64,000 nt of DNA from Bacteroidota bacterium (GTDB lineage Bacteria > Bacteroidota > Ignavibacteria > Tepidaquicellales > Tepidaquicellaceae), in the NCBI GenBank assembly GCA_018266845.1, contig JAFDZO010000003.1:1-64000 (forward strand), given 5' to 3'. The notes beneath the pieces were generated by a model. That model did no database searches, was not told the origin of the DNA, and was given only the letters and a program-made list of their open reading frames with translations. Positions 50,275 to 59,899 of this stretch are shown in pieces. Each line of letters begins with the position of its first letter. The stretch's first letter is position 1. The translations under genes and the position numbers were made by a program.

Positions 50275-50587
50275 AATTAGATTAGTTAATTTCTCCCACC
50301 CGTTTCGGGAGGGAGCTTACATGGCGAGTTAGCTCCGCGTCCCGAATTTGGATAGTCTTGACACAAGAATGTTAGGAGAAAGTCTTTAATGTTTTTGAAT
50401 ATCTCCAATATTGAAAAAATATTTTTTGCGCGCAGAGAAAAAAATCTTCGATTGCTGGTAAGGCAAAGAAGCGCAGCACTATTCAAAAAACAAATAAGTT
50501 GTTTTTTGATTTATTTTTGGGGATTTTTAAGTCAATTATATTTTTCCCTGCTGGCAAAACAATTTTAACCCCTGAAAAGCTCTAACT
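50275..50587. other. Intergenic region without a gene
   Basis: No reading frame here is convincing. There are small palindromes near 50296-50345 (CTCCC...GGGAG, GGAGCT...AGCTCC) and a perfect 10-bp stem CAAAAAACAA/TTGTTTTTTG at 50484-50508 followed by T-rich DNA, which could act as a weak terminator. The region separates the divergent nuclease cassette from the gene at 50588 and must hold both promoters. Confidence 0.5.
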
Positions 50588-52063
50588 ATGAAACTGAAAG
50601 AGCATGGCACAGTTTTGCTTTTAAAGTCATTACCCAAAAGTGAAATCGAACAAATTGAAAAGTTCATTTCATCTCCGTACTTTAACTCAAACAAAAATAT
50701 CGCCTCGTATTTCTCCGAGATTGTAAAATTTCACCCGTTATACGAGGGAGAAAATTTTGAGAAAGAAATTCTATACTCAAGAGTGTACAAAGATAAGGCG
50801 TACAACGATTCGAACTACAGGTGGATAATGAGCGAGATTACTAAGCTTATAGAAAAGTATCTGGCGCAGAATGAATACGATAAGGATAAACTAATGCAGA
50901 ATTTTTATCTTTTGCAAAATCATACTCAAAATCACCGCGCAAGCTGGATTGCAAAAGCGATTACTAACAATGAAAAGCTGCTCTCGGAATATCCCGATAA
51001 GGATTACGTTTTTTTCTTCCACAAGTACATTCACTACACCCATGAAATGAACTTGAGATATACTTTCAAAAATTCTATTAAGGCAAGCGACTTGGAATTT
51101 CTATATGAGAAATTTCAAAAAGCATTTATTTCATACATCAATCATTTTATCATCGGAATTGCATATGATTATCTCAACGCCGGAATTATTTTCTCGTTCT
51201 ATCAGAAAAACGGAGTAAATAAAAAGATTAATGAGATAATAAAGATTTTGGATTTCGCAAAGATAGCAAAGAGTATTGAACCTCAGAATGAAGACAGCGA
51301 TACTCTTAACGCCCTGATTATGATTTTAAATATGTATCTTAACTTTAACGATAACGCTTACTATAAAGAGTTCAGAAAGTTTTTAAATGAAAATACCAGG
51401 AAGATTTCACGGGAACAGCTGAGCGGATATTATTCTAAATTAATTTCTTATTGCAGGCTGAAAATAGTAAACAGTATAGAGGAAGAATTTTTCAGAAAAG
51501 AGCTGCACGGGCTTTGTGAAGATTTTATCGGTAAAAAATATTTCATTCAAGAAATAACAAGAAGCCTGACTCCAAACTTATTCAGAATAGCTCTTGAGAA
51601 TTCGCTTGAGCTTGAAAATTATGACTACGCAGAAAATTTTTTAACAAAAAACATTGATGCCATCAGCATAGAAAAAAGAAACGATGTGCTAAATTTTGGA
51701 AAAGCTTTGCTATGTTTTTACAAGGGAGATTATGGTAATTCTCTGGAGTATCTAAGCAGAACGGACGGAAGCCTTTTTGCAATAGACCAGAAAGCTTTGC
51801 GTATGCTGCTTTTTATAGAGCAAAAATTTTATTTTGAGTGCGGAACGGAATTAAAATCCTTTAAAAAATTTCTTTCCACTAACAAGTTTCTTTCACCTGA
51901 AACAATGGAAAGATGGATGAACTTTACACATATTGTGTCATTGCTTTTAGATAACTATGAAAAGAAAAACAAACCCGGAAAAAAACTAATCAGAGATTTA
52001 TTAAGTTCAAAGAAGCAGGTTTATTTCCATAAGTGGTTTTTGAAAAAAATAAACGGGCTGTAG
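50588..52063 (+). CDS. Unknown helical protein, paralogue 1 (491 residues)
   Basis: I do not recognise this family. The protein is cytoplasmic, wholly helical, and homologous over its full length to the 491-residue protein at 58424. Shared points include LREH/LKEH at the start, SSPYFNS against QSPFYNN near residue 30, YYSKLISYCRLK against FHYSKLISYCFLR near 282-292, ALRMLLFIEQKFYFECG against AMKIMIFYSLSYYNEGL, and FHKWFLKK against YKDWLIKT at the end. Repeated helical pairs suggest a TPR-like scaffold. It is convergent with a small secreted-peptide gene whose terminator overlaps its stop codon. Confidence 0.65.
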   Translation: MKLKEHGTVLLLKSLPKSEIEQIEKFISSPYFNSNKNIASYFSEIVKFHPLYEGENFEKEILYSRVYKDKAYNDSNYRWIMSEITKLIEKYLAQNEYDKDKLMQNFYLLQNHTQNHRASWIAKAITNNEKLLSEYPDKDYVFFFHKYIHYTHEMNLRYTFKNSIKASDLEFLYEKFQKAFISYINHFIIGIAYDYLNAGIIFSFYQKNGVNKKINEIIKILDFAKIAKSIEPQNEDSDTLNALIMILNMYLNFNDNAYYKEFRKFLNENTRKISREQLSGYYSKLISYCRLKIVNSIEEEFFRKELHGLCEDFIGKKYFIQEITRSLTPNLFRIALENSLELENYDYAENFLTKNIDAISIEKRNDVLNFGKALLCFYKGDYGNSLEYLSRTDGSLFAIDQKALRMLLFIEQKFYFECGTELKSFKKFLSTNKFLSPETMERWMNFTHIVSLLLDNYEKKNKPGKKLIRDLLSSKKQVYFHKWFLKKINGL

Positions 52064-52078
52064 AAAAATCTACAGCCC
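52055..52078. terminator. Bidirectional hairpin between convergent genes
   Basis: GGGCTGTAGA (52055-52064), loop of four A, TCTACAGCCC (52069-52078). The left arm contains the last codons and the TAG stop of the upstream gene. A T-rich tract follows on the minus strand, so it best terminates the small gene at 52089. Confidence 0.75.
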
Positions 52079-52088
52079 GCCGTAATGC

Positions 52089-52307
52089 TTATTCCAGAGG
52101 ATAAGCAGTTACGAGATTTCCATCTTTATCATACACGAATACCCACATTACGCCCTCAACATTTTGGTAAACGTAAGTGTAATCTTCGCCATTGAGCGTT
52201 AGCTCAATAGATAAAGCAGGGGCTTTTGAATTTGCTTCTTTGTAGCTGCCGGAGAAAAGTAAGCTTGCAGCAACTAAAAGAGCAAAAAGAAAAGTTTTGA
52301 AGTTCAT
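52089..52307 (-). CDS. Small secreted peptide, paralogue 1
   Basis: 72 residues with a signal peptide (FKTFLFALLVAASLLFSGS) and a mature part of about 45 residues ending VMWVFVYDKDGNLVTAYPLE. It aligns with the 79-residue peptide at 57994 (VMYIFVYTLDWKLVNIYPE). A strong Shine-Dalgarno sequence (AAGGAGG on the minus strand, 52322-52316) lies eight bases before the ATG, better than most genes here, suggesting high expression. No cysteine. It is divergent from the 270-residue helical gene (195 bases between start codons) and convergent with paralogue 1. Confidence 0.75.
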   Translation of the reverse strand: MNFKTFLFALLVAASLLFSGSYKEANSKAPALSIELTLNGEDYTYVYQNVEGVMWVFVYDKDGNLVTAYPLE

Positions 52308-52502
52308 AGTTGTAACCTCCTTTTGTTTTTAGTTACATCACAAGTTTACTTTTATTTAAAAACGGTTATTAAAAAATTTTTGTCAATTTCTGAAATGATT
52401 CAGGGGCAATTTTTTTGTTCATTTTTTATTTTTCATAGGAGAAATTTTCATTTCAAATCCTGATTTTCTGAAATTAGCGGTTTTTCAAAGAATTCAATTT
52501 TT

Positions 52503-53315
52503 ATGGTTAAAGGGAAAATTATAGAATATTTAAAGGCGCTTTCGCGAGAAGAATTTGAAAGGCTTAATGATTTTTTGCACTCCCCTGTGTTTATTAACAG
52601 CAAAACTGCCAGGGCGTTTTACTCGTTTGCAAAGAAAAAAAAACGAGATGACAGGATTATTGAGTTCACCTGGAAGGATATATCAGACTATGTTTACAAA
52701 GGAGAAAAATACAACGAAAACAGAGTGATGAAGCTGGTATCGGATTTCTGTAAGATACTAGAAAGATATTTTGAGTTTTTGATTTTTGAAAAAGATGAAA
52801 GATACAGGAAGAATGCTTTGCTGCAATCGCTGAGGAAACGAGAGCTGAAAAAACATTTTCAGAAGGAGTATGAGGAAATTGATTTTAAGGATATAAACAT
52901 TACTGCTGATGACTGCTATTACGCTTATGCAAATTATTTAGAAAAAAGTATTGTTGTAAAGAAGATTGATTTGAAAATTATGGAGAGTAAATTCGGTGAT
53001 ATAATAACTTTTGTAAAGCTGGAGCATTTGATTATGAAAGCAATGAATAAATCGGATGCTCCAATTTATTTGGAAAAAGAAATTCTGACTTACTTACATA
53101 AAAACGAAGGGAAACTCCTTAAAGAATTTCCCTCGTTGTATTATCGGTATCAGGTTTACAAAATGTTTACAGCAAAAGAGCAGATGAAAATATATTATGA
53201 ATTGAAAAGGTTTCTTGGAAAGAACGGAAAGAAATTTGATAAGCAAGTAATGGATTATTTTAGGAACAGCCTTCTTATTAGTAGAATAAAAATTAGAGAA
53301 GCAAGATTTACTTGA
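52503..53315 (+). CDS. Unknown helical protein, short paralogue (270 residues)
   Basis: Homologous to the first 290 or so residues of the 491-residue proteins: IIEYLKALSREEFERLNDFL and HSPVFINSKT at the start, RVMKLVSDFCKILERYFEFL in the middle, and YYELKRFLGKNGKKFDKQVM near the end. It then stops, so about 200 C-terminal residues are missing, and no remnant lies in the 46 bases before the next gene. It is either a true short member or an old deletion. Divergent from the small secreted-peptide gene. Confidence 0.62.
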   Translation: MVKGKIIEYLKALSREEFERLNDFLHSPVFINSKTARAFYSFAKKKKRDDRIIEFTWKDISDYVYKGEKYNENRVMKLVSDFCKILERYFEFLIFEKDERYRKNALLQSLRKRELKKHFQKEYEEIDFKDINITADDCYYAYANYLEKSIVVKKIDLKIMESKFGDIITFVKLEHLIMKAMNKSDAPIYLEKEILTYLHKNEGKLLKEFPSLYYRYQVYKMFTAKEQMKIYYELKRFLGKNGKKFDKQVMDYFRNSLLISRIKIREARFT

Positions 53316-53361
53316 ACAAATAGTTTTCTATATCTCTGATTTTGTTTATAATTTACTCACA

Positions 53362-54267
53362 TTAATCTTCGTGAATAATTACATTCATAACAAACCTATC
53401 GGGACCTTTATTATCTTTGGATTTTTGCTTATTATCTTTTAAGGGAGGGTTATCATCTGTTTTAGTTAATTCAAACCAAACTTTATCACTATAATCAGTG
53501 TTTCTAAAAACGTTTTTGTAAGGTTCAAGTTTTATTGTATTTGCAGCCCTATCGTAATAACTACTTTCAATTAGTATGTATTTAATCTCCTCTCCAAAAG
53601 ATAAATCAAAATAAAATTTTACAGGACTATCAATATCACGTAAAGTATAGTTATTTTTATAAGTAACAACATAGAGATTATAGCTATTATAATTAGCCGA
53701 TTCATTATTAATATAGAGACGATAAATTTTATCACTTTCTGCGTGTGGGATAGACTCTACCGGAAATTCAGGGTAACGCATTTTAGAGTTTATATCATCA
53801 TCATGAATTACTAATGAAGTAATTTCATTTAGATAAAATTCGGAACTATCTTTTGTTTGAGTGAATTCATACCATATGTAATCATTTGAATAACTACTAC
53901 GATCCTTACATTTATTTATCAGTAAAGAGTCTTGTTCTAAATTAAGCCCATCAAAACTTGATAAAATGATCACCTTACTAAAAATAAACATCGGGTCTAT
54001 ATTGTTTACATAAAAGTACTCCCCACCCGTCAAACAATATTTGTAAGCTGGGTTAATCGAGTCTTTAGCAGAATATATAAATATGGAATATTTATTATTA
54101 TATCCCGATTCATTTCTAATATATAATTTTTTATATATTAATAATTGAGTCAAGTTTTTTCCACAATTGTTCTCAAGCTTTATTTCAACCGCCCGGCATT
54201 TATTTACTACACTATTAAAAGATAATAGAATTAAAAAAGACACTAAGATATTTTTTCTTATTAGCAT
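53362..54267 (-). CDS. Exported protein with an internal duplication
   Basis: 301 residues with a signal peptide (KNILVSFLILLSFNSVVNKC). The mature part is two copies of a strand-rich unit: YIRNESGYNNKYSIFIYSAK and DYIWYEFTQTKDSS in the first, YINNESANYNSYNLYVVTYK and DKVWFELTKTDDNP in the second, about 130 residues apart. The tail is lysine- and asparagine-rich. No family recognised. Very AT-rich. It lies eight bases after the ATPase gene on the same strand, so it is probably cotranscribed with it. Confidence 0.62.
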   Translation of the reverse strand: MLIRKNILVSFLILLSFNSVVNKCRAVEIKLENNCGKNLTQLLIYKKLYIRNESGYNNKYSIFIYSAKDSINPAYKYCLTGGEYFYVNNIDPMFIFSKVIILSSFDGLNLEQDSLLINKCKDRSSYSNDYIWYEFTQTKDSSEFYLNEITSLVIHDDDINSKMRYPEFPVESIPHAESDKIYRLYINNESANYNSYNLYVVTYKNNYTLRDIDSPVKFYFDLSFGEEIKYILIESSYYDRAANTIKLEPYKNVFRNTDYSDKVWFELTKTDDNPPLKDNKQKSKDNKGPDRFVMNVIIHED

Positions 54268-54274
54268 ATATTTA

Positions 54275-57200
54275 TTATTTTGAAATTTTCTGAATATATT
54301 GTTTTACATCGTGGCTTGGAAATGCAGAATAGATTTGTCTCAATTTTTTACTAAATCTCTTTTTATATTGCAAAAAATCTCTCGTTTTGATTATTTTTTT
54401 TTCATTCATAATAGATAAAAATAAAAAATATCGAAAACTTAATTCTGCATAAACCAATTTATCCTTAATTTTTGCAAGGATATTATCCAGTCTCTTTAAT
54501 ATTTCAAAAGTTTTAAAAGTCGACTTGCTGTCACAATCTATTAAAGCAATGTAAAAAAATTTATAAAACGTTCCATAAAGAATATCATTTTTTAAAAACT
54601 TGCCTATCTCAAGAAATTTACCAATATATTCTAACGCATTAATATTTCTCCCTAAATAAAAAAAATTTTCACTTAGATTCAGGTAAACTTCTTTTAAATA
54701 TTTATCTAATAAGTTTTCACTTATTATTTTCTGAGCTTTTAGGTCATTTCGTAAAGCATGCTTATACCTTTCTTGTCTTCTATATACACACCCAATATTT
54801 AGCAAACACTTTGCTATGTTTTCACTTTTCTTCATTGAACGTTCGATAAATAATTGCTTCTTAAAAAAACTCAAACTACAACTGTAATTTCCTTTTATCA
54901 TATTTATTAACCCAAGATTTGAATATGATATGGACATAAGTTGTATAGATTTAAGCTTTTTGGAAATAGAGAACATTTCGGAAAAATACTGTTGTGCGAT
55001 ATTATATCTACCAAGTTTCATATTCACATTCCCCAAAGAATTATTCAATATCGCAATATTAAATTGGTCGTTAAGCAATCTATAAATATGCTTTTGCTTT
55101 TGTAGTTTTTTTTCGCATGAAGTAAAGTCATCAGAAATAAAATCCAAACTTGCCATATTTCCAAGACACATGGCTATTTCTTTAAGTGCACCGATACTTG
55201 AAAAATAAAAATACGACTCTTGGAAAAACTTTGCAGATTGCAAGTATTTTTTTTGTGAAAAAAAAATACTACCGATTTTAATACATGTTTCACCCAATAA
55301 AAATCGGTTGTTCAATATTCGAAGTATTTCATAATTATTTCGCAAATTTTTCAGCGCCTCTTCGTGTCTCCCCTCAATAGCATTTAACCTAGCAAGAAAA
55401 TTATAAGCCTTAGAAATGTACACCAAATCATCTTCCTCTTTAGAATTTAATAGTAATTTATTACAAAATGTATTTGCGTCTTTTAGTTTTCCCCTTTTTA
55501 TAAATAAGTCACACGCGCCAGAATATGCCTGTAATTTTTGTGGCGGTGATCCAAAATTACAAACTTTTAAAAAATATTTTAAAGCTAATGAAAATTTTCC
55601 AGTGTTTAAATAAAATTGAGCCAATAAAAGCAAGACACTATGATGTATTTCTTTATCACATTTATCTGTGGATTTAATCCAATTAATGAAAATCTTTAAT
55701 TCACTCCAATCACCCAAGGTATACAAAACACTACAATGTTTAACAAGAAAATTACAGTCTAAAGATTTTTTTTCTTTCTCTTTCAAATATTTTTCATAAT
55801 ACCCTCTCGCCTTTTCTAAATCCCACTCTGCTTTCGCCCTATCACCCGCTTTCTCCAGATACTCAATCATCTTTTCTTTGTGCGCCGCTTTTGTGAAATG
55901 ATCTGCGAGAGCGAAATAGTAATGCTCAATTTTATCGCTGTAAATATATTCTATTTCAAAGCCGATGCGCTCGTGAATTAGTTTCTTTTCATCTTTCTCA
56001 ATTGAATCATATATTCCTTCTAAAATTAAATCGTGCTTTAAGAAAATTTCTTTATCATTAATTGTGATAAAATTATTTTCGAAAAGAAGGTAAAGTTCGT
56101 CTTCCGTTATTGCATTAAAATTATACTTGAGTAAAACTCCGTTTACGATTTTCGCATCAATTTCTTTTCCAAGCGCAGAGGAAATTTTCAAAAACATAAC
56201 AAGGTTCTGCGGCAGAAGCTCAAGGCGGGTTTTAATAATTTCCTTTACGGAGTCAGGTATAGCAGTTTTATTGTCTTTAATAAATTCTACAATCTCCTGC
56301 ACAAATAAAGGATTGCCGCCCGATTTATGCAGCAGCTCAATTTGCTTTTTCTTTGACAACGTTAATCCGCTTTTAATCAGTAGGGATTCAATAAATTTTT
56401 TCGCTGCTTCCGGCTCAAGCGAGTCGAGATAAATTTCCTCTTTCTCACCGGCATCCTGATTAATGTTTATTTTATAACCCGTTCTGTGGATAAAAATAAA
56501 TTGAAGTGAATAATTTCGCTCAAAGTCATTTCTGAAATCATCGAGAATAAAGTTTATTGCTTTTACAGTGCGTGAGTCAGCCCACTGGACATCATCAAAT
56601 GCAATTACCAGAGGCGATTTTTCCATTGAACACAAATATGCCAGCGCTCCGATAAAATTTCTTATTGCTAAAATTTTGTTTTCATTATTTTCATCGCGTG
56701 TGTTTTTTGCAGAGGATTCTTTCAGCAAGGAAATTAAATCGGGTATAGAGGAATTAAGATTACTCCTTAGCTTGTTATCTTTTATCTTAGCTGCAAAAGC
56801 GCGTAGAGATACTTCCGGTTTTTCATCTTTAAATATTTTTTTCAGCAGACTAACAAAATGACCATAGGCGCTGCCGTAATTTTCATTTTCCAAATAAAAA
56901 CAATTTTTACAATAGCGGGAGTTGAAGTAATAATTCACTAAGGCAGTTTTTCCAATGCCCGGCTCTCCGCTGATGAAAACAGAATTAAAATTTATTCCTG
57001 ATAGCTCTGACTTCAGCCTGTTGTAGCTTTTCTGCAGAGTTTTTATTTCTTTTTCCCGTCCGAAAAATTCAGTTCGCTTCTTTTTTATTTCATCTTTGAG
57101 AAAATAAAAATCCCCGCCGTTCATTTTTTGAGGAGCAAAGCTGTAACTGTTCTTTAAACGGGCAAACAGGGAATGAGAAACAAGTATTCCTTTTTTGAAA

Positions 57201-57583
57201 TCAGGAACATCGTAATTATAGAAAATATAGTAGAAGGCATGTTCGGAAAATTCGTCTTCAAAAATCACTCTATCGCAGTGCGCAAAAATTTTAGAAGAGT
57301 ATTCTGTTTTGAGGCGGCGGATTATTTCGGCGGCAAGACGGAAATTGCCTTTCAGCTTATCGTCATGATTAAAAATAAAAACGACTTTGCCATCAACTTC
57401 ACGATATAGAATATCCACAGGAAAATTATTTTCCGCTAATACCTTGTGCAGGTCTTTGTTTTCAGCTTCAGCAATGCAGAAAACAAGATTTTTATATAAT
57501 GAAGCATCAGGACTTAAATAAGCCTGAGGCGCGCCGGGGAAAAATTTGTTGCATGCTGCTATATGAAGAAGCGCATTGAACAA
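54275..57583 (-). CDS. AAA+ ATPase with TPR repeats and a cyclase-like N-terminal remnant
   Basis: 1102 residues. Residues about 30-175 resemble the end of a class III nucleotide-cyclase-type module but without visible catalytic aspartates. The ATPase domain opens FFGREKEIKTLQKSYNRL, with Walker A GEPGIGKT at 206-213, Walker B LVIAFDD at 325-331 and QWADSRT behind it, as in MalT-like and cyclase-associated STAND ATPases. From about 570 come ten or more TPR units (LGNVNMKLGRYNIAQQYFSE, YSNLGLINMIKGNYSCSLSF). No DNA-binding domain is seen. The start is TTG. Probably a ligand-sensing scaffold; partner unknown. Confidence 0.75.
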   Translation of the reverse strand: MFNALLHIAACNKFFPGAPQAYLSPDASLYKNLVFCIAEAENKDLHKVLAENNFPVDILYREVDGKVVFIFNHDDKLKGNFRLAAEIIRRLKTEYSSKIFAHCDRVIFEDEFSEHAFYYIFYNYDVPDFKKGILVSHSLFARLKNSYSFAPQKMNGGDFYFLKDEIKKKRTEFFGREKEIKTLQKSYNRLKSELSGINFNSVFISGEPGIGKTALVNYYFNSRYCKNCFYLENENYGSAYGHFVSLLKKIFKDEKPEVSLRAFAAKIKDNKLRSNLNSSIPDLISLLKESSAKNTRDENNENKILAIRNFIGALAYLCSMEKSPLVIAFDDVQWADSRTVKAINFILDDFRNDFERNYSLQFIFIHRTGYKININQDAGEKEEIYLDSLEPEAAKKFIESLLIKSGLTLSKKKQIELLHKSGGNPLFVQEIVEFIKDNKTAIPDSVKEIIKTRLELLPQNLVMFLKISSALGKEIDAKIVNGVLLKYNFNAITEDELYLLFENNFITINDKEIFLKHDLILEGIYDSIEKDEKKLIHERIGFEIEYIYSDKIEHYYFALADHFTKAAHKEKMIEYLEKAGDRAKAEWDLEKARGYYEKYLKEKEKKSLDCNFLVKHCSVLYTLGDWSELKIFINWIKSTDKCDKEIHHSVLLLLAQFYLNTGKFSLALKYFLKVCNFGSPPQKLQAYSGACDLFIKRGKLKDANTFCNKLLLNSKEEDDLVYISKAYNFLARLNAIEGRHEEALKNLRNNYEILRILNNRFLLGETCIKIGSIFFSQKKYLQSAKFFQESYFYFSSIGALKEIAMCLGNMASLDFISDDFTSCEKKLQKQKHIYRLLNDQFNIAILNNSLGNVNMKLGRYNIAQQYFSEMFSISKKLKSIQLMSISYSNLGLINMIKGNYSCSLSFFKKQLFIERSMKKSENIAKCLLNIGCVYRRQERYKHALRNDLKAQKIISENLLDKYLKEVYLNLSENFFYLGRNINALEYIGKFLEIGKFLKNDILYGTFYKFFYIALIDCDSKSTFKTFEILKRLDNILAKIKDKLVYAELSFRYFLFLSIMNEKKIIKTRDFLQYKKRFSKKLRQIYSAFPSHDVKQYIQKISK

Positions 57584-57731
57584 ATTTTTAGGGGTTTAGT
57601 TATGCAAATTTATAGAAATTTTTTATTAAATGTAAAGTATTTTTTTAATAGTTTGTGTAATATTTCAAAAAATAACCGAAATATGAAAAAAAATGTGAGA
57701 AAAAAAGGTAAGTAGAAAAGGAATTTTTGGG

Positions 57732-57780
57732 CAAAAAAAAATACTCCATCCGAAAAAGTATTAAAAAGATGGAGTATTTT
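57732..57780 (-). terminator. Strong terminator on the minus strand
   Basis: AAAATACTCCATC (57738-57750) and GATGGAGTATTTT (57768-57780) form a perfect 13-bp stem around 17 bases, and the minus strand continues in T (57740-57733). It would end the transcript of the small peptide gene at 57994, leaving about 210 untranslated bases. The rest of 57584-57731 shows no gene. Confidence 0.8.
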
Positions 57781-57800
57781 AACGAGGTGAGATTTTAGCT

Positions 57801-57923
57801 ATGAGAAACTCTTATGGTAAACGGGAGAATAAACTGAAGGGGGGCTTAAATTTATTTCTCCCAAACTATACTGTAAAAACTCAAAGAGCTTTTAGAGTTC
57901 AAAACCTCCCCCGAAAAAACTAA
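57801..57923 (+). CDS. Possible 40-residue reading frame
   Basis: A frame opening MRNSYGKRENKLKGG and ending QNLPRKN, basic, without a membrane helix. GAGGTGA at 57784-57790 lies ten bases upstream and would be a fair ribosome-binding site. It lies between a hairpin and a CTCCC/GGGAG inverted repeat (about 57906-57937), antisense to the 3' part of the peptide transcript. Evidence is weak; it may be chance. Confidence 0.25.
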   Translation: MRNSYGKRENKLKGGLNLFLPNYTVKTQRAFRVQNLPRKN

Positions 57924-57993
57924 AAAAACGAGGGAGCGTTTTGATTCACCATTATTAATTCAATTAATTAAAACAATTCAAACTTTTAAAGAA

Positions 57994-58233
57994 CTAGCCT
58001 CCTCCATGAGGACCGCAGGATTCCGGGTAAATATTTACTAATTTCCAATCCAGCGTGTAAACGAATATATACATTACATCATTAATGAGTACCTTTTCAT
58101 ATCTATATTCCTCTTCGACTTTTGAAGAGTTTGCTATTGAACTACTTTCAGCCAATACTGATGAAGGAATACTAAACGCCGCTCCTGATATTAGTAAAGC
58201 AAATAAAAGGATTTTTAAAAATACTTTTCTCAT
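57994..58233 (-). CDS. Small secreted peptide, paralogue 2
   Basis: 79 residues with a classic signal peptide (FLKILLFALLISGAAFSIPS, cleavage after VLA at about residue 28). The mature part of about 50 residues contains VMYIFVYTLDWKLVNIYPE and ends in SCGPHGGG, a single cysteine followed by a glycine tail. The core matches the 72-residue peptide at 52089; the tail does not. It is divergent from the 491-residue helical paralogue 2 with 190 bases between start codons, almost the spacing of the first pair. Function unknown. Confidence 0.72.
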   Translation of the reverse strand: MRKVFLKILLFALLISGAAFSIPSSVLAESSSIANSSKVEEEYRYEKVLINDVMYIFVYTLDWKLVNIYPESCGPHGGG

Positions 58234-58423
58234 ACTGTGGGTTAATTTTACCTTTTAACTAAAATCTATACAAATATTATCAAAGAATATTTAATATGCA
58301 AAGAAATTTTTTTTATTTTTCCGTGCATAAAAAACGCGGAAATGATGAATATTGTTTATTTTTTAGTTTTTTTTTAATATTTTAAAGAAAAAATTTAGTT
58401 AATTTTCCGCTTATTTCTTAAAA

Positions 58424-59899
58424 ATGGATTTGAGAGAACATAACATAATTCAGATACTGAAATCAACTTCTAACGAAGAATTAAAGTTCATTAAGAACTT
58501 TTTTCAATCTCCGTTCTACAATAATCTTTCAAAGATTGTTGAACTTTTTGAAATACTGAGGAAATTTTCTCCTGATTTTTCCTCCGAAAAGCTCAATACA
58601 AATTATCTTTTTAAAAAACTCTACCCCGGCAGCGCATATAAGCATTCTACAATCACAAACCTGATTTCTAAAATGCAAAAGCTGCTCGAAGAGTATCTGA
58701 TAGTATCTAACATACAAAAAAATCCTTTCAAAAAGAATGAATTTTTGCTCCAAGAGTACTTTGGAAGAAACCTGAAAAACCTTTCTTATAAGAATATTTT
58801 CAATCTCTCAATGGAGGAAATTTCTAAAGAGGATATTGATTCGGATTTCTTTAATACAAGCTTTAGTTACGATACCTACAGAATTAACTACATAATGAAC
58901 TACGGTTTCGACAGCCCAAAAAAGGCAGTGGAAATTCTTTCACAAAGCTTCCTAAATGTGAACGTTAATTTTATTAATTTTTTCATTATGGAGCTTATGT
59001 CTAATTATATTAACTCCATTATTTTGCTTTCTACAAGCGATACAAATAATGTAAAATCCAAGATTGATAAAGTCATCAGCGATTTAAACATAAAACAGCT
59101 TATAAAAAATATTGAACCGTATAACAAATACACATACATTATTAATCTTTACCTGAAATTGTTAGAAGCATTTTCAAATCAGAATAACATTGAATATTAT
59201 CATGCTTACAGAAAAGAATTATTTAAGAATAAGGACAAGCTGAACAGAAACGAGATTTACTTTCATTATTCTAAACTTATCTCCTACTGTTTCCTCCGAA
59301 GAAATAAAAGCGATAATTTCGATTACGAAAAAGAAATTTTTGATATTTGCGAAATTGTGCTCAATAACGAATACTACATCAGCTTTGAATCAAAATTTCT
59401 TCCCATTAATCTTTACAAAATAATTATTAATAACTCTATTGCCCTTGAGAAGTATGACTGGCTGAAAAATTTTATTGCAGAGTTCAGCGGCAAGGTGAAT
59501 CCAAGACTGGAACAGGATGCGAGAAATTTTGGCGCCGCTAATCTGAACTTCGCTTTGGGAGAATTCAACAACTGCCTCACAGACCTCAACAAAATTCGAG
59601 ACAACGTTTTTCTTCTTGAAATCCGGGCTATGAAAATTATGATTTTCTACAGCCTTTCTTATTACAACGAAGGTTTGAACGATTTAAAATCATTCCAAAA
59701 GTTTATAAAAATAAACAAGACGTTCACCCAGCAAAGAAGGCAAATTTTAATCAATTTTTTAACATATATGGATAAGTTATTTTTGTATAAGCTTTCAAAT
59801 AGAAAATCTGAAATAGGCTATTACAGGAAAAAACTTGCTACCGAAGAAAATTGCCTCTATAAAGACTGGCTAATAAAAACTTATCAAAAAATAAAATAA
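58424..59899 (+). CDS. Unknown helical protein, paralogue 2 (491 residues)
   Basis: Full-length homologue of the protein at 50588 and exactly the same length. It starts DLREHNIIQILKSTSNEELK, with SPFYNN near residue 30, and ends YKDWLIKTYQKIK. Helical throughout, no signal peptide, no enzyme motif. Apparent pairs of helices (FALGEFNNCLTDLNKI, MIFYSLSYYNEGLNDL) suggest a TPR-like superhelix. It starts 190 bases from the divergent small secreted-peptide gene, and DUF1844 follows after 19 bases. Confidence 0.65.
   Translation: MDLREHNIIQILKSTSNEELKFIKNFFQSPFYNNLSKIVELFEILRKFSPDFSSEKLNTNYLFKKLYPGSAYKHSTITNLISKMQKLLEEYLIVSNIQKNPFKKNEFLLQEYFGRNLKNLSYKNIFNLSMEEISKEDIDSDFFNTSFSYDTYRINYIMNYGFDSPKKAVEILSQSFLNVNVNFINFFIMELMSNYINSIILLSTSDTNNVKSKIDKVISDLNIKQLIKNIEPYNKYTYIINLYLKLLEAFSNQNNIEYYHAYRKELFKNKDKLNRNEIYFHYSKLISYCFLRRNKSDNFDYEKEIFDICEIVLNNEYYISFESKFLPINLYKIIINNSIALEKYDWLKNFIAEFSGKVNPRLEQDARNFGAANLNFALGEFNNCLTDLNKIRDNVFLLEIRAMKIMIFYSLSYYNEGLNDLKSFQKFIKINKTFTQQRRQILINFLTYMDKLFLYKLSNRKSEIGYYRKKLATEENCLYKDWLIKTYQKIK

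Follow-up and report, generated by a model that had tools for sequence, protein, structure and literature searches.

Positions 50,588 to 59,899 of the window, a stretch of 64,000 nucleotides from a Bacteroidota bacterium (contig JAFDZO010000003.1), carry genes for three homologous helical proteins and two short secreted peptides, and raise the question of what joins these two kinds of gene. A first-pass annotation had seen in them a functional unit, and had suggested a pheromone with its cytoplasmic receptor, as in the RRNPP systems (Rap-Phr, Rgg-SHP, PlcR-PapR, NprR-NprX, AimR-AimP). Comparison with related genomes pointed to another answer. The helical proteins belong to an undescribed and very large family, probably of DNA-binding regulators, and the best explanation, which we consider probable, is that each family protein is a local, autoregulated regulator of the exported gene divergent to it, acting through a paralog-specific operator pair. 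The genes in question are listed below, with their orthologues at locus L061 of G001, a genome of the same genus.

50588..52063, plus strand: regulator A, 491 residues; N-terminal helix-turn-helix (HTH)-like domain and superhelix resembling tetratricopeptide repeats (TPRs); member of the peptide-paired clade; G001 orthologue L061 8273-9784
52089..52307, minus strand: secreted peptide A, 72 residues; G001 orthologue L061 9807-10022
52503..53315, plus strand: truncated regulator, 270 residues, restricted to the N-terminal part; lies divergent to peptide A; not present in G001
57994..58233, minus strand: secreted peptide B, 79 residues; G001 orthologue L061 10528-10767
58424..59899, plus strand: regulator B, 491 residues; AlphaFold model with a predicted local distance difference test (pLDDT) score of 84; G001 orthologue L061 10961-12436, 69% identity

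All seven genes were found where the first-pass annotation had placed them. Regulators A and B were homologous (31% identity, E = 3.6e-56); the 270-residue protein matched only the first part of the family (E = 4e-22) and, because no continuation of its gene was found in any frame, it is probably truncated. Peptides A and B were 39% identical on alignment and fell into one profile family, so that their proposed homology held; their signal peptides were called by hydropathy only. The nearly equal gaps described earlier were confirmed, being 195 bp between peptide A and the 270-residue gene and 190 bp between peptide B and regulator B. Both of these pairs were divergent, but the pairing does not extend to the first 491-residue gene: regulator A had no peptide gene on its 5' side, and peptide A is convergent with regulator A while being divergent to the 270-residue gene.

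Divergent pairing with exported genes

One 491-residue protein, used as a query, had relatives in 38 of 40 related genomes; the genomes compared were mostly metagenome-assembled genomes (MAGs). There were 35 family matches in the window's own genome, and 50, 45, 57 and 36 respectively in G025, G010, G032 and G009, which are relatives from the same order; a few of these matches were fragments. The other related genomes surveyed had only 1–6 matches each. When 198 genomes from the whole phylum were sampled, full-length members were rarely met outside the same order; the few exceptions came from f7 and f10, families of the class (a split match in the case of f10), and from one family elsewhere in the phylum. 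The MAGs that contain loci L081–L083, which match the window's family, are named Ignavibacteria or Bacteroidetes bacterium, in agreement with the first-pass placement of the genome. No model in Pfam or NCBIfam covers the family: 53 aligned members produced no match that named it, only scattered weak matches of TPR type. No relatives were found on the viral contigs searched.

Throughout, export was called by hydropathy (not SignalP), start codons by heuristic and genes by a crude caller. Most family members had an exported-protein gene immediately 5' and divergent. With a single crude gene caller applied to all genes, a divergent exported-protein gene was the 5' neighbour of 31/42 family genes, compared with 21/230 control genes (p = 5e-18). 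Short peptides were the partners of 42 of the 141 distinct members, and other divergent exported proteins those of 61; several of the 16 cases classed as 'divergent other' had a signal-like segment after a mis-called start. All six of the large divergent partners tested contained TIGR04183, the type A sorting domain of the type IX secretion system (T9SS), at 40–44 bits (cut-off 23), and most partners of the helical paralogs are large type IX secretion cargo. The short peptides lacked a TIGR04183 match. The layout was also seen in other families of the order, and was shared by members outside it (L085–L088, L090 and L091).

Helical genes that occur widely with no small secreted-peptide gene beside them had been named in the first-pass annotation as evidence against its unit, and this is the state of most of the family: the majority of the helical paralogs lack a short peptide and stand divergent to genes for large exported proteins. 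A pheromone system as the whole answer was ruled out for the same reason. Head-to-tail pairs of regulator genes, with gaps of -4 to 41 bp, were noted at L080, L077, L097, L111 and L121, as if two regulators served one partner.

Predicted structure and candidate direct-repeat operators

The AlphaFold model of regulator B, built from six sequences (the pLDDT given above is the mean), was all-helical, with a five-helix N-terminal domain followed by a TPR-like superhelix. For residues 128–491, the best structural matches were Rap proteins (RapI, Z = 15.0, root-mean-square deviation (rmsd) 4.8 over 284); LGN, a TPR protein (Z = 14.1), NprR (13.4) and AimR (about 12) were also matched, and consensus TPR proteins were found by profile search (E = 4.8e-6). 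Since LGN and other TPR proteins were tied or close, the match to Rap means a TPR superhelix and no more.

In the AlphaFold model, the solved folds nearest to the N-terminal domain of about 95 residues were DNA-binding HTH domains of OmpR/PhoB type. When the first 120 residues were modelled alone (pLDDT 81), almost all matches were DNA-binding proteins (CadC, SaeR, ArlR, CovR, AdeR, TcpP, ToxR, PerR/Fur and KorA), with Z values of 4.5–5.7 over 65–73 residues; about 20 OmpR-type entries had Z values of 4.2–5.7. CadC was the top Foldseek match (probability 0.98, rmsd 2.0 over 54 columns), but with a weak E-value of 0.57. The model has no beta wing; the helix at residues 74–99 is presumed to be the recognition helix. 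As far as such a model can indicate a DNA-binding domain, the weight lies in the uniformity of the match list and not in any one score. Neither the window proteins nor any of the 53 members had a hit to Trans_reg_C (PF00486), BTAD (PF03704) or the Pfam HTH families, including the lambda-repressor type PF01381. Kinship of this domain with OmpR at the sequence level was not upheld, the profile comparison not being significant.

Alignments of orthologous intergenic regions contained same-orientation blocks that were present twice, and were kept while the remaining intergenic DNA diverged (GAGTTGCTTAT in one genus, TTGTCGCA in another group). The repeats differed between paralogs and were conserved between orthologues. 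Candidate sites in the window were as follows.

50453..50463, plus strand: candidate distal operator of regulator A (TGCTGGTAAGG); 96-bp direct-repeat pair
50549..50559, plus strand: candidate proximal operator of regulator A (TGCTGGCAAAA); 39 bp before its ATG
52387..52396, plus strand: candidate distal operator of peptide A and the 270-residue gene (TTTCTGAAAT); 78-bp direct-repeat pair
52465..52474, plus strand: candidate proximal operator of peptide A and the 270-residue gene (TTTCTGAAAT); 78-bp direct-repeat pair
58272..58302, minus strand: candidate promoter of peptide B (TTTG N19 TAATATTT, Bacteroidota-like); weak consensus match
58312..58324, plus strand: candidate distal operator of peptide B and regulator B (TTTATTTTTCCGT); 86-bp direct-repeat pair
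58398..58410, plus strand: candidate proximal operator of peptide B and regulator B (GTTAATTTTCCGC); 86-bp direct-repeat pair

The regulator A pair (TGCTGGYAA at 50453 and 50549, 96 bp apart) was kept in G001 at 97 bp, as TGTTGGYAA; the pair between peptide B and regulator B (TTTTCCG at 58317 and 58403) was 86 bp apart in both genomes, and reads TTTCCGC in G001. From such pairs it appears that one intergenic region does serve both genes, as had been supposed.

Each upstream region was then scanned for its best direct repeat, one copy being required to lie 8–65 bp before the regulator start. Three spacing classes emerged, 75–78, 86–88 and 97–99 bp, which are about one DNA turn apart. In the discovery set, these classes contained 23/42 peptide-paired genes (2.7 in shuffles, standard deviation (sd) 1.7) and 21/77 cargo-paired genes (5.0 in shuffles, sd 2.2), while control genes gave 14/191 against 11.9 expected. 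As the classes came from the discovery data, two further genomes that had played no part in defining them were tested with the classes fixed, and 20/55 regions conformed, against 3.4 expected (p = 4e-11). Regions were also clustered by DNA similarity to obtain independent ones; 16/46 held-out regions unrelated to the discovery set fell within the classes (2.9 expected, p = 8e-9), as did 53/165 of all independent regions (10.2 expected). The Rayleigh test supported clustering without pinning the period, its optimum being broad (10.5–12). Inverted-repeat operators showed no excess, their mean z being 0.19 as compared with 0.99 for direct repeats. The distal repeat of several peptide pairs began 10–18 bp upstream of the -33 element in a candidate peptide promoter of Bacteroidota type; for peptide B, the distal operator candidate starts 10 bp upstream of the TTTG of its promoter candidate.

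These patterns would be accounted for by a regulator that typically lies back-to-back with one exported product, be it a large type IX cargo protein or the secreted peptide, about 70 residues long, of one clade. Each member would bind its own paralog-specific direct-repeat pair, on one face of the DNA, within the shared intergenic region; since the sites keep the same helix face, binding would probably be cooperative or by looping. The distal site, which in the best-resolved cases would lie just upstream of the partner promoter, could activate, although the divergent exported gene might be either activated or repressed by its regulator. The proximal site, 10–60 bp before the regulator's own start, could repress and so provide self-control. 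Sensing probably falls to the TPR domain, the ligand being perhaps the partner protein, a fragment of it or something else.

Several observations weigh against this scheme. In absolute terms the match to HTH folds is weak, with Z at most 5.7 besides the Foldseek value already given, and hhalign against 31 OmpR domains returned E = 0.07, within the shuffled range, with the expected helices aligned. There are tandem copies, and some members have no clear divergent partner. The spacing classes had their origin in the discovery set itself, and repeat pairs of these classes rise above scan noise in only about a third of regions. The match to the promoter consensus was hardly better than for shuffled sequence, so that the arrangement of distal repeat and promoter is suggestive only. 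Lastly, the repeats could be bound by another protein.

This last point is part of one alternative, in which the helical protein is a dedicated cytosolic chaperone or pilot that binds its exported partner before secretion, while the repeats serve another regulator. It would agree with the one-to-one pairing with exported proteins, and protein ligands are often bound by TPR superhelices. However, the repeats, being different among paralogs and conserved among orthologues, are what one would expect if the paralog itself bound them; the N-terminal domain looks like those that bind DNA; and the genes are divergent rather than in an operon, which is unusual for chaperone genes. A chaperone function is improbable.

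SARP/AfsR-type regulators have an OmpR-like HTH with a TPR-like domain behind it; the proposed regulators may share this design, their modelled N-terminal domain looking OmpR-like and a helical TPR-like region coming next. Direct-repeat operators are typical of that class. The window family is unlike them in lacking a Pfam match to Trans_reg_C or BTAD, in operator pairs that are 75–99 bp apart, and in having one regulator per exported gene.

The short-peptide clade

A profile built from 25 peptides was searched against the 40 relatives and the window's own genome. As the seeds had been chosen beside helical genes, the informative hits were the non-seed ones. There were 20 hits without a listed helical gene; 15 of these proved to have a divergent helical gene, three were at contig ends, one had none and one was spurious. 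The peptide family was almost never found without the regulator. In total there were 46 peptide–regulator pairs, 41 of which had a gap of 109–259 bp, and in this conserved divergent layout the suggested pairing as a unit is borne out. A tree of 192 regulators placed all of the 43 that are peptide-paired in a single clade of 48 (support 94); the five members without peptide pairing include regulator A and its G001 orthologue. The peptides have a common core of about 30 residues (V..DG.WWIYVY..DG.LV..Y), which from its sequence looks like a small, folded, beta-rich unit. That the peptides are truncated T9SS sorting domains is not claimed, the profile comparison (E = 0.013, probability 3%) being only slightly above shuffled controls.

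At L022 (G005), two tandem peptide genes with gaps of 222 and 488 and identical C-terminal ends (GGVIRVITQPIG) accompany one regulator. At L082 (5533–5916) and L083 (5613–6002), both on the minus strand, a gene for a small exported protein, which we take to be Spy/CpxP-like, is convergent with, and just downstream of, peptide-paired regulators.

It is for this clade only that RRNPP-like signalling could be added to local regulation as an extra step, whereby a secreted peptide or fragment would re-enter the cytoplasm and, on binding to the TPR domain, switch the regulator, so forming a quorum or self-recognition circuit. The pairs resemble RRNPP systems in placing a cytosolic TPR protein of about 490 residues beside a gene for a short secreted peptide, and in the C-terminal fold; Rgg-SHP pairs, moreover, are often divergent. 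Published screens (PMC10075063) look for receptors of 250–500 residues with TPRs, propeptides of 10–100 residues with a Sec signal, and adjacent genes; a 491-residue protein with TPRs, and peptides of 72 and 79 residues with a signal by hydropathy, fall within these bounds. Rap proteins being the best matches of the TPR model, with NprR and AimR also listed, the almost constant presence of the regulator beside the peptide, and the confinement of peptide-paired regulators to one clade all favour this possibility too. Yet the RapI score is tied with that of the unrelated LGN; the conserved part of the peptide is a core of some 30 residues, probably beta-rich, and not a short terminal tag; most of the family has no peptide, so that no propeptide gene adjoins the cargo-paired members; and the N-terminal domain is unlike the HTH family of known RRNPP receptors, appearing instead OmpR-like. 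The absence of a PF01381-type HTH excludes only the transcription-factor branch of RRNPP, because Rap-type receptors have no HTH. The lineage, furthermore, is Gram-negative, and sequence homology to RRNPP proteins was not detected.

The likeness to RRNPP receptors in the first-pass annotation thus stands for the C-terminal fold and fails for the N-terminal domain, and the proposal of a pheromone or self-recognition system was not upheld. An RRNPP-like loop within the peptide clade is possible and a fair hypothesis; as the explanation of these pairs, signalling by a returning peptide was considered unlikely. A wider version, specific to this lineage and with one regulator for each exported product, would have every HTH-TPR regulator sense its own partner in the cytoplasm through the TPR domain, be it an unexported protein, a processed fragment or a returning peptide, with phased operators feeding back on both genes and the peptide clade as a Gram-negative analogue of Rgg-SHP; this is tentative, and on balance somewhat doubtful.

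A pair working as toxin and antidote or in self-recognition, of the kind known from contact-dependent or kin discrimination, would suit secreted partners that vary in sequence and paralogs that are numerous in each genome. But the peptide core shows conservation and not polymorphism, the cargo tested carried ordinary T9SS sorting domains, the phased operator pairs would be left unexplained, and PADLOC gave no match for the two regulators; such a pair is very improbable. A defence system was rejected, there being no PADLOC match for the regulators.

Other features of the locus and related systems

Two further genes lie between the peptides of the window:

53362..54267, minus strand: 301-residue protein
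54275..57583, minus strand: STAND ATPase, 1102 residues; AAA_16 and TPR by Pfam

Both had been included in the locus by the first-pass annotation, as a STAND ATPase and a duplicated exported protein. Both are present, although the duplication looks, as judged by eye, like two similar halves within the single 301-residue exported chain. In G001, the order is a 503-residue regulator A, peptide A, peptide B and a 491-residue regulator B; the 270-residue, 301-residue and STAND genes, which in the window stand between the two peptides, are absent from this syntenic locus. The STAND ATPase and the 301-residue protein were ruled out as parts of the unit because G001 is without them. The divergent partner of peptide A, which in the window is the truncated regulator, is likewise missing in G001; the picture suggests an intact copy with a decaying one next to it. 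Pfam at its cut-off gave no match for the helical proteins, the peptides or the 301-residue protein of the window. The N-terminal part of the 1102-residue protein (about 170 residues), where Pfam also gave no match, looks similar to a degenerate class III cyclase domain.

Divergent to regulator A is a gene for an SNase-domain protein (PF00565; 49288–50274, minus strand), the place of which is taken in G001 by a 211-residue protein with a lipoprotein-like N-terminus. A candidate structured RNA (57733–57990, minus strand, non-coding) lies just 3' of peptide B. This block is about 90% identical to G001, folds much better than its shuffled counterparts (z = -6.15 and -4.99), and is predicted to form a branched structure followed by an intrinsic terminator. 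It had no Rfam match, and among the loci searched its covariance model matched only the window genome and G001; no known RNA families were found in the window between 50000 and 61000.

Local regulators of surface or secreted genes are familiar in Bacteroidota, for example SusR-type regulators and pairs of extracytoplasmic function (ECF) sigma and anti-sigma factors. As there, the window family has many paralogs per genome, each beside an exported system that it would control. It differs in being another family, with a cytosolic HTH-TPR architecture, single-cargo pairing and no membrane receptor.

Nothing relevant was found in the open-access literature on the control of which type IX secreted proteins these bacteria make, and how they choose among many such proteins appears to be undescribed. 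The pairing suggests control by one regulator per secreted product. If this is true, about 30–57 paralogous regulators per genome, each with one secreted product and one operator pair, would represent a very large expansion of local regulators within one lineage, and would offer a testable code connecting regulator, DNA site and cargo. With the peptide clade there would be a concrete case to consider for RRNPP-like peptide signalling beyond the Gram-positive bacteria.

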